A DNA stretch of 61,430 nt from positions 1-61,430 of the forward strand of contig CAJEZV010000003.1 in assembly GCA_903995005.1 (NCBI GenBank), in the 5' to 3' direction. This document shows positions 58,166 through 61,430 of this stretch, piece by piece; position 1 is the first letter of the stretch, and every line of letters starts with the position of its first letter. The position numbers and the translations under genes were made by a program. The notes below the pieces were generated by a model. It was not told where the DNA came from and searched no databases. It was given only the letters and a program-made list of their open reading frames with translations. The DNA comes from an uncultured beta proteobacterium. GTDB taxonomy: Bacteria > Pseudomonadota > Gammaproteobacteria > Burkholderiales > Burkholderiaceae.

Positions 58166-58497
58166 TTGGCGGTAAGTAAGCGCACAACCGGTTAAATTGG
58201 AGATTAGACGGTTGGATAGTTTAAGAAGTCAGCAAAAACAGACTCAAATCCGAAAACCCTTGCTCAAGGGTGCCAGGGCTATTCTCTCTATTTTTTCCAG
58301 CACATTTAAGAAGCCGTTGTCCTTCGGGGCCACGGCTTTTTTTCCAGGATTCATTAGCGTGCAGCACCTAGCATCAAGCCGCGCGCCGATGAATGGCTCG
58401 CTCGTCAGCTCCAAAAGGTTGCAAAACCAGGTGGAATTAGATGGTCGGGTCTTCTTAATGTAGTTTGTACTAATCCTCACGTGAAGGAGTAACACAC
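58166..58497 (+). other. Spacer between nrdB and the H1-like gene
   Basis: This 332-bp gap holds no credible gene. It contains a small hairpin, ACCCTT-GCTC-AAGGGT (58256-58271), the nrdAB terminator listed separately, and about 150 bases of leader for the H1-like gene ending in a good ribosome binding site, GAAGGAG at 58483-58489. A 44-codon open stretch at 58358-58492 lacks a start codon and is treated as chance. Confidence 0.6.
58311..58343 (+). terminator. Intrinsic terminator of nrdAB
   Basis: AAGCCGTTGTCC pairs with GGGCCACGGCTT around a TTCG tetraloop, with one mismatch and one G-T pair, followed by a run of Ts to 58343. The stable tetraloop and long T-run make this a strong terminator. 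Confidence 0.88.
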
Positions 58498-58886
58498 ATG
58501 GCAACAAAGAAAAAACCTGCTGCAAAGAAACCAGCTGCTAAGAAAAAAGTAGCTGCTAAGAAACCAGCCGCTAAAAAAGTAGCTAAGAAGAAGCCAGCTG
58601 CTAAGAAGCGCCCAGCTGCTAAAAAAGCTGCTGCTAAAAAGCGTCCAGCTGCTAAGAAAAAAGCTGCCGCTAAGAAGCCTGCTGCTAAAAAAGCCGCTAA
58701 AAAGAAGCCAGCCGCTAAGAAGCGTCCAGCTGCTAAGAAGCGCGTAGTAAAAAAAAAGTAAGTAAGCCTGCTGCGAAGAAAGCGGGCTCTGCTGTAAAAA
58801 AGCCCGCGGCTAAGAAAGCTGCATCAGCGACTAGTGCGTTGAACCCTGCCGCTGCTTGGCCCTTCCCAACTGGCACACGTCCTTAA
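58498..58886 (+). CDS. Histone H1-like Lys/Ala/Pro-rich DNA-binding protein, with apparent -1 frameshift at 58752-58758
   Basis: The zero frame (58498-58761) codes 87 residues of PAAKK-type repeats and ends with TAA at 58759. The stop follows the slippery heptamer A AAA AAG (58752-58758) inside a run of nine As. The -1 frame runs on for 42 codons (VSKPAAKKAGSAVKKPAAKK...) to LNPAAAWPFPTGTRP and TAA 58884-58886, which I recognise as the usual C-terminus of Burkholderiales H1-like proteins; the joined product is 129 residues. An 8-bp stem starts 6 nt after the heptamer. The full extent is listed because the tail is clearly coding. It may be a programmed frameshift, or a mutation or sequencing error. 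The protein should compact or bind DNA. Confidence 0.8.
58752..58788 (+). promoter_or_regulatory. Candidate -1 frameshift signal in the H1-like gene
   Basis: Heptamer A AAA AAG (58752-58758) is followed by UAA, a 6-nt spacer and a stem of AGCCTGCT (58765-58772) with AGCGGGCT (58781-58788): eight pairs, one of them G-U, and an 8-nt loop. A competing stem, GCGGGCT (58782-58788) with AGCCCGC (58801-58807), is also perfect. No convincing internal Shine-Dalgarno is seen upstream. The layout resembles the dnaX signal. Confidence 0.6.
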
Positions 58887-58905
58887 TCAGACGGGTGTTA
58901 TTAGA

Positions 58906-58932
58906 AGGGGTCTCTAACGAGACCCCTTTTTT
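58906..58932. terminator. Strong terminator between the H1-like and PfkB genes
   Basis: AGGGGTCTC (58906-58914), loop TAAC and GAGACCCCT (58919-58927) form a perfect 9-bp stem with a T-run to 58932. It ends the H1-like transcript 20 nt after the -1 frame stop, supporting the view that the tail is part of the gene. It may also serve the convergent kinase gene. Confidence 0.9.
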
Positions 58933-59982: not shown

Positions 59983-61430
59983 TTAGGGGTAAATAACCCT
60001 TACTCGATAGCCTGCAGCATTCTGCGGCAATTGAATTGCTAATGAAGTTTGTATTTGCTCCCCAGAGGCGACACCTGCCCGCAAAAAATCAGGATGAGAC
60101 TCTTGCCAAGCAGCGGGTAACCATTCTTTTGGTGAGAATTGGAGTGATTTGATCTCAGCCTCTTCTGCATCGGTGAGAGAAATTTCTAAATTTGGGGCTA
60201 AAACAGAGAGCGCAAGACGATTTTGTATTTCAACTTGCAGTATTGATTGATTTGCGCCGCTTTTAAGGCCCTCTCGTGCGTTTTCAGGTGATAAGGCGGC
60301 TGAAGTTATTTTCCACGCAGCAAAATCGCTTACAGGGCGGTTTACGCAGCCTAGCGCGCGACAAATTTTTTCATCAAAGTACTGCAAAACAGTAAATGAA
60401 TTTACTAAAAAAGCATTTGATGTGCCATCAACCCGAGGTGCTAATGCGGGAAGCAAAGAATTTCTCGAAAGATGCTCACCAAATACCAGCAGCAGAACAA
60501 AAAAGCAGCCTAGTAGAGCTAACTTAACTCTTTTTTTTTGCGCAGGCGTATCTAAAAGAGTGGTTTTGCTGACGTCCTTATCTTTTGATAGGGTTCCGTG
60601 CAAGCAAACCCATCCATCATTTTCTTTCCAGACAGAGAGTCTGAGCCATTGACTATAGGTGGCAATCACTTCCTCCGCTTGGCGTGCAAGTACTCCAGAC
60701 AGAACAATTTGTCCGCCTGGACGCATTTTGTTAACCAATGCTGGAGCCAATACTTGTAGCGGGTTAGCCAAGATATTGGCCATCACAATGTCGTATTTTG
60801 TTTCTGCGGCAAGTTCTGGCGCATCTTCATTAGGCAAAACAAACTGAATAACGGTGTTATTGATTTGTGCATTGCTGCGTGCTGCAACCATCGCCTGAGG
60901 GTCGATATCGGTTCCTACAACCGGATTGCAACCAAGTTTTGCAGCTGCAATGGCAAGAATGCCCGAGCCGCAACCGTAATCGAGCAAACTTTGCTTATTT
61001 AGATTGCCATATTCTTCGAGCCATAACAAACACAAATGGGTAGTGGGGTGGCTACCAGTACCAAAAGCTAAACCTGGATCAACAGCCAAGCAGATTGCAT
61101 TTGGATCGGTGGGAGCGTCATGCCAAGAGGGTACAACCCAAATTCGTTTACCAATTGGAATAGGGGCAAATTGGCTTTGGGTAAGTCTTACCCAATCCTG
61201 TTCTTCAACGATTTTTTCCTGGGGAGCTGATAACTTAAAGCCAGCCTCTTTTAGGGAGGCCAGTAATTCAGGAATAAAGTTTGCACTTGCTGAAGCATCA
61301 ATATCGGGATTAAAGAGGGCGGTTACAGAGGATCTATCCCAGGCCTGTACTTCAGGGGATAGCCCAGGCTCTCCGTAAAGTGGATTCTCATCGTACCCAC
61401 CGGCTGCATCATCTTCTACCGTGACAGATA
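59983..61430 (-). CDS. prmA: Ribosomal protein L11 methyltransferase fused to a DUF3426 membrane domain (5' end outside window)
   Basis: The frame is open to the window edge, so at least 481 residues are visible and the N-terminus is missing. PrmA parts are EDDAAGGYDENPLYGEPG, RIWVVPSWHD, DPGLAFGTGSHPTTHLCL, the SAM loop DYGCGSGILAIAAAKLG and the NPL motif NILANPLQVLAP, ending near GWVCLHGTL (about 60588). Without a stop it continues through a membrane helix (VKLALLGCFFVLLLVFG) to a DUF3426 region ending YRVRVIYP at 59986. Normally these are two genes, the second with an N-terminal zinc ribbon that is absent here. Confidence 0.88.
   Translation of the reverse strand, partial: SVTVEDDAAGGYDENPLYGEPGLSPEVQAWDRSSVTALFNPDIDASASANFIPELLASLKEAGFKLSAPQEKIVEEQDWVRLTQSQFAPIPIGKRIWVVPSWHDAPTDPNAICLAVDPGLAFGTGSHPTTHLCLLWLEEYGNLNKQSLLDYGCGSGILAIAAAKLGCNPVVGTDIDPQAMVAARSNAQINNTVIQFVLPNEDAPELAAETKYDIVMANILANPLQVLAPALVNKMRPGGQIVLSGVLARQAEEVIATYSQWLRLSVWKENDGWVCLHGTLSKDKDVSKTTLLDTPAQKKRVKLALLGCFFVLLLVFGEHLSRNSLLPALAPRVDGTSNAFLVNSFTVLQYFDEKICRALGCVNRPVSDFAAWKITSAALSPENAREGLKSGANQSILQVEIQNRLALSVLAPNLEISLTDAEEAEIKSLQFSPKEWLPAAWQESHPDFLRAGVASGEQIQTSLAIQLPQNAAGYRVRVIYP

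Follow-up and report, generated by a model that had tools for sequence, protein, structure and literature searches.

At one locus of a Polynucleobacter MAG, a Lys/Ala-rich gene resembling H1-like histones stops just behind a run of A residues, and a further open frame in the same Lys/Ala style continues behind the stop. The question raised by this locus is whether the break is a flaw in a homopolymer, or whether it is a recoding signal through which one mRNA would give two forms of a chromatin protein. The stretch of DNA analysed, here termed the window, comprises 61,430 nt of the MAG (G000; 152 contigs, 80% complete), whose nearest named relatives are Polynucleobacter isolates; G and L numbers denote genomes and loci, respectively.

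The H1-like gene of the window

The gene follows matches to nrdA and nrdB, and the features at the locus are collected in Table 1. The zero-frame ORF is composed almost purely of Lys, Ala and Pro, and its 3' end reads GTA AAA AAA AAG TAA. The description given by an earlier sequence-only reading was recovered in full, i.e. a stop codon directly adjoining A_AAA_AAG, a -1 frame of 42 residues, a stem of 8 pairs beginning 6 nt past the heptamer, and a terminator behind the -1 frame; the terminator stem begins 18 nt after the -1 stop, for which 20 nt had been stated.

Table 1. Features predicted at the H1-like gene (positions within the window)
Feature	Position	Strand	Remarks
Shine-Dalgarno-like AAGGAG	58484..58489	+	putative, spaced 8 nt from the ATG; read from the sequence
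Zero-frame ORF, short H1-like form	58498..58761	+	87 aa; stop TAA 58759-58761
A9-G run	58749..58758	+	A9 = 58749-58757; includes slippery heptamer A_AAA_AAG 58752-58758
-1 frame tail	58758..58886	+	42 aa, VSKPAAKKAG...LNPAAAWPFPTGTRP; long form 129 aa in total
Hairpin A	58765..58788	+	8 pairs, AGCCTGCT/AGCGGGCT (58765-58772/58781-58788), candidate stimulator, starting 6 nt past the heptamer
Competing fold, hairpin B with closing pairs C	58765..58811	+	B GCGGGCT/AGCCCGC (58782-58788/58801-58807); C AGCC/GGCT (58765-58768/58808-58811)
Terminator-like stem with T run	58905..58932	+	AAGGGGTCTC/GAGACCCCTT; read from the sequence

The zero-frame ORF matches PF07382 (HC2) and NF038053 (hist_H1_lk_Burk) weakly and below the cut-offs; against NF038053, with its curated cut-off of 80 bits, the short form scores 25.7 bits and the long form 46.4 bits, and the alignment of the long form extends to model position 195 of 195. 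The traits of NF038053-type proteins are present, namely Lys/Ala repeats, a C-terminal WPFP motif and a position after nrdB. A homologue search with the fused protein, in which the best 7996 candidates by common words were scored, returned 17 weak matches, the low complexity of the protein defeating the search. One other DNA match in the same genome (L002, 1495-1842, minus strand) encodes a 115-aa protein with a Lys/Ala-rich end, by its look a putative ribosomal protein L31. The short form would be a bare DNA-binding chain, and the long form this chain extended by a conserved hydrophobic end. For AlgP, with its Lys/Ala/Pro repeats, DNA binding and a requirement in the spacing of polyphosphate granules are reported in the portion of PMC9239181 available to us.

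The frame break across Polynucleobacter and its relatives

A total of 186 genomes of the genus were searched; 150 loci were read from that listing, and a further 34 genomes were approached via nrdB, of which 26 matched, so that eight genomes with neither tail DNA nor an nrdB match stand outside the counts. Among the 177 loci read, the tail was present in 167 and absent from 10 in the first pass; one of the 10, L128 (G033, motif WPSP), was recovered afterwards, so that a C-terminal tail was readable in 168 loci. Of these, 141 have A_AAA_AAG with a stop codon and the tail following at -1; in 23 the tail is continuous with the gene, and in two (L007 and L140) it would need a +1/-2 shift; the remaining two are a broken MAG copy (G054) and a truncation at a contig end (G019). 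In 130 of the 141 break loci an ATG and an open zero frame lie inside the locus, and 11 are cut at contig ends; the median lengths across the break loci are 93 aa for the short form and 135 aa for the long form. At L007 (G018) and L140 (G051) the run is one A shorter and the zero frame two codons longer, possibly through loss, through error, or as access to the tail by another type of slip.

Of 153 loci counted initially, 13 with a TAG stop were set aside as continuous-frame relatives (12 so classed, and L228, on a contig without the N-terminus and with the tail frame open over its available extent). Also left out of the -1 count were L246, a broken copy inside a continuous-frame clade, and L167, a MAG locus with the site present and a further one-base difference downstream. 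Contigs end in or near the H1-like gene in many MAGs (e.g. L006, L017, L161, L173), presumably because of the repeats of the gene.

The break is also found in 51 of 61 single-contig genomes (50 plus G033) and in named isolates (P. sinensis, L036; P. cosmopolitanus, L045; sp. 73C-SIWE, L034). The alternative attached to the sequence-only reading, loss of one base from the A9 run or its misreading in sequencing, is ruled out by these counts, and sequencing error is excluded for this MAG because the break recurs in orthologues, single-contig genomes included. A homopolymer in a MAG would lend itself to a sequencing or assembly error, or to a pseudogene; given the single-contig genomes and isolates, such an origin of the break is left with a negligible probability.

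Outside the genus, the homologous tail is in one open frame with the gene in 52 loci; one more locus (L052) is masked. Single-frame tails number 55 among the loci fetched by nrdB (L047-L113), and L047, L048 and L056 of these belong to the P. rarus group; the tail was not found in 11 of these loci, including those of Ralstonia and Cupriavidus. A pattern scan for AAAAAAGTAAGTAAGCC was positive in 15/15 sampled Polynucleobacter genomes and in 0/135 genomes of 24 other genera of the family. The long form is the only form in these relatives with single-frame genes.

In a tree constructed from nrdA and nrdB of 41 genus members and 6 outgroups, two deep branches carry the break, namely the P. cosmopolitanus group and the core. 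The frame is continuous in G053, the P. rarus group and the G001/G050/G055/G127 group, and, as isolated cases, in G034, G182 and G031; in the latter three, within the break-bearing core, a single frame is restored (L145 of G034, with A7; L182 of G182, by an upstream change with A9 kept; L171 of G031, a rewritten repeat gene), and these loci are predicted to yield the long form only. A single origin of the break followed by several losses matches the shared sequence of the site; two origins are also possible. Continuous-frame orthologues, which the sequence-only reading had counted against programming if they were without a conserved slippery site or stem, do exist (the 23 in the genus and those of the outgroups), and are read here as the ancestral form or as apparent reversions, not as a refutation. 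Judged from the orthologues, the frame break became fixed inside the genus, and about 140 species retain it together with an intact tail. Because the break is fixed, the tail is intact and the relatives are single-framed, programmed recoding is the most likely explanation.

Sequence constraint at and behind the break

The run is A9 in 129 of the 141 break loci, A8 in nine, A10 in one, and A6 in G033 and L222, and an A9 run anywhere gave 9-14 matches per genome in the five genomes searched. A_AAA_AAG stands directly before the zero-frame stop in 129 of the 130 loci assigned to the -1 class from reading frames alone, hence the heptamer is not a product of the filter alone; for the 140-locus set, which was filtered on heptamer plus TAA, the first tail codon GTA and the A-initial codon after it follow from the filter. 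Farther upstream, these genes encode Lys by AAA (1539) and AAG (1543) in near-equal numbers, and therefore the Lys content alone does not explain the slippery site. The A_AAA_AAG site at the break is more than chance.

The nine A8 loci read GCT AAA AAA AAG TAA and retain the heptamer. The single-contig genome G033 reads GCA AGA AAA AAG TAA, with A6 only; the longest other run in the gene is A7, and the tail is open at -1. This gene is diverged (Glu for Lys, and WPSP), for which reason it may be decaying. Locus L222 (G057), sister to a continuous-frame clade, reads GCA AAA AAG TAG, the A6 being located 12 nt behind an A10 run.

Conservation of the A9 and of the heptamer with its stop was thus found, which the sequence-only reading had named as support for programming; the conservation of the stem was partial. 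For the window, the energies of the folds are -14.0 kcal/mol (A), -12.8 kcal/mol (B), -15.5 kcal/mol (B with C) and -21.0 kcal/mol (minimum), and the predicted minimum-energy fold includes hairpin A; RNAalifold on the core clade gave hairpin B, not hairpin A. Pair conservation was scored on 71 distinct core sequences, which represent 112 of the 140 loci; 19 further distinct sequences lie outside this set. Here, the inner six pairs of hairpin A are kept in 55/71 and all eight in only 20/71; the first six pairs of hairpin B are kept in 66/71, as are all four closing pairs C. Two-sided changes are rare, with one for B (L132), and one at the first G-C common to the columns of A and C and consistent with C (L123). 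The substitutions favour a fold other than hairpin A.

In comparison with synonymous recodings under three codon-use models, the first 36 nt downstream in the window fall at 0.5%, 4.5% and 2.5%, i.e. they are more stable than 95.5-99.5% of the recodings. Among nine representatives, two pass the 5% level in all three models on these 36 nt and six in at least one; L212, L232 and L222 pass in none, and L222 passes on 56 nt in two. A downstream RNA stimulator is likely in the core clade, with two competing folds predicted. An upstream Shine-Dalgarno-like stimulator was looked for as five 4-mer motifs in the 20 nt upstream, and none was present in 140/140 loci; such an element is not obligatory for -1 programmed ribosomal frameshifting.

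Four-fold sites were compared for those 69 of the 140 loci that belong to the core clade, align without gaps and have nrdB; the differences amount to 0.020 in tail codons 1-10, 0.031 in codons 11-20 and 0.318 in codons 21-36, with 0.212 in nrdB. The expected contrast between a conserved site and variable third positions elsewhere therefore held in the core clade, but not in the P. cosmopolitanus branch, where the break occurs without suppression (0.301 vs 0.427 in nrdB, the latter from 7 of 12 loci). Differences are also low in the G001 group without the break (0.123, 0.026 and 0.049 vs 0.261 in nrdB); in the P. rarus group, which aligns poorly, they are 0.122 over columns 1-20, followed by 0.434 and 0.355, with 0.286 in nrdB. 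Since the P. cosmopolitanus branch is unsuppressed and the G001 group is low without a break, constraint at the RNA level is firm only in the core clade, and it may not stem from the shift alone.

Proposed recoding mechanism, rival explanations and known systems

The explanation that we consider best, at a probability of roughly 0.68, is a conserved -1 recoding in which the ribosome slips at A_AAA_AAG in the mRNA of the H1-like gene, to give a short and a long form. Most ribosomes would read AAG and halt at the adjoining TAA, releasing the short, purely basic form; a fraction would move back by one base on the heptamer through tandem re-pairing of tRNA-Lys, probably aided by the adjacent stop codon and by the RNA hairpin from 6 nt downstream, and would read the tail to WPFPTG. 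Both products would then be made, and the short form may act as a tail-less DNA-binding variant.

In place of the ribosome, the polymerase might slip, adding one A at the A9 in some transcripts so that the long form is encoded directly, an explanation that we regard as rather unlikely but as a serious rival; both processes may act together. It would account for the prevalence of A9 at the break and for the choice of the ninth A, which is synonymous: GCA is used for 113 of 122 Ala codons at the site and for 137 of 2825 Ala codons upstream. The ribosomal heptamer does not need A9 rather than A8, and this preference counts against the ribosomal reading. Moreover, a second A9 is found at a PrmA/DUF3426 junction in 20/30 genomes and in three codon phases, a variation that slippage would tolerate, and the lineage may use A9 in this way. 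Against polymerase slippage stand the A6 of G033, the retention of heptamer and stop, and the direction of the shift, which in the 168 loci is -1 in 141 and +1 in two (L007, L140); the A6-G-TAG site of L222 does not discriminate, because of its upstream A10. A fixed direction predicts ribosomal shifting and a variable direction slippage, according to the portion of Antonov et al. (PMC3711429) available to us. The 38/38 tRNAs of genome G077 include one tRNA-Lys, with anticodon UUU, and in E. coli, likewise with a single tRNA-Lys(UUU), A_AAA_AAG is very shift-prone as described in part of PMC5009743. Slipping of the ribosome is hence favoured for the fixed direction, the heptamer with its adjoining stop, the A6 of G033, the nine A8 loci that keep the heptamer, the one tRNA-Lys(UUU) and the hairpin 6 nt downstream.

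An early indel in the A run might also have been merely tolerated, rescued by shifting, with the long form alone of importance and the short form waste. This rather unlikely alternative shares its mechanism with ribosomal recoding, and the dispute is limited to the use of the short form; it agrees with the conserved tail and with the restored frames of G034 (A7), G182 and G031, apparently without loss, yet a one-base change would restore the frame, few species of the break-bearing branches have made it, and site and stop are kept. Phase variation, i.e. slipped-strand mispairing in the A run that toggles between short and long form, could draw on the homopolymer at the break, but should leave a mixture of lengths, in contrast to A9 in 129/141 loci and a phase changed only in G034, G018 and G051 (with one genome per species); we consider it very improbable. 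Even less credit is due to reinitiation at a start codon within the tail: many tails contain GTG or TTG codons, but at varying positions, 28 of 140 tails have none, and the product would be only a short peptide. It was rejected for the lack of a conserved start codon.

Among the closest known systems is dnaX of E. coli, with A_AAA_AAG, a stem-loop shortly downstream, a single tRNA-Lys(UUU) and two products per gene (as given in parts of PMC5009743 and PMC3711429). The present case differs in its gene, an H1-like histone, in that no upstream Shine-Dalgarno-like stimulator was found, and in that the longer product comes from the shift and the shorter one from the zero frame. In dnaX of Polynucleobacter itself, in-frame A_AAA_AAG is absent from 7/7 genomes (L301-L307; L303 has one A6G out of frame), so the E. 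coli-type dnaX shift seems absent in these strains, and dnaX was rejected as an in-genome yardstick. Transcriptional slippage genes such as dnaX of Thermus thermophilus and tssM of C. rodentium, as far as their descriptions were available, share a poly-A run and two protein lengths, whereas here the direction is fixed and one single-contig genome has A6 only. The chlD frameshift, reported for P. duraquae among others, also concerns a Polynucleobacter gene, but not a histone (part of PMC9227772). The H1-like histones of Burkholderiales (NF038053) have the Lys/Ala/Pro repeats and the C-terminal end in common with the long form and are read in one frame; AlgP of P. aeruginosa shares KPAA repeats, but is single-framed with a further N-terminal domain (part of PMC9239181). 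A term search of the main texts of the GeneTack survey, the Atkins review (the first 300,000 of its 475,107 characters) and the E. coli heptamer survey gave no bacterial histone and no Polynucleobacter, and no paper on this frameshifted gene was found in the open-licence PMC literature, exclusive of the GeneTack database and of supplementary tables.

Few ordinary bacterial genes have a conserved programmed frameshift (dnaX, prfB, chlD and some others); if true, a frameshift in an H1-like histone gene would connect the packing of the nucleoid with recoding. Through the variety of naturally occurring sites (A6, A8, A9, A10, restored frames and break-free branches), the origin of the signal and the role of the tail become testable. 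More tentatively, and at somewhat less than even odds, we propose that a genus-wide programmed frameshift sets two isoforms of a bacterial chromatin protein, the short form having been gained by an early break, with selection on the proportion of short to ancestral long form, and that the PrmA/DUF3426 A9 within 2 kb joins or splits these two proteins by slippage. Homopolymer recoding would then be a habit of the lineage, carried out by the ribosome in the histone gene and by the polymerase in its neighbour.

This second A9 (60531-60539, minus strand), 1.8 kb from that of the histone gene, lies between PrmA (PF06325) and DUF3426 (PF11906) in one ORF (59983-61428, minus strand). In the 20 of 30 genomes (loci L338-L367) that keep it the linkers differ, and the codon phase of the run is 1, 0 and 2 in 13, 5 and 2 genomes, respectively. 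Three genomes (G112, G023 and G030) have a zero frame that closes within ten codons, with DUF3426-like sequence at -1; in the other 17 the zero frame continues, and a slip would mostly end within about 15 codons (in G016, not at -1). Such a pattern would be expected of slippage by RNA polymerase, and this A9 is a candidate for programmed transcriptional slippage, predicted to give PrmA alone and a PrmA-DUF3426 fusion. Six genomes (G010, G118, G057, G050, G001, G127) have the joined PrmA-DUF3426 ORF without A8 or longer, and four genomes of the P. rarus group have a PrmA that terminates on its own.
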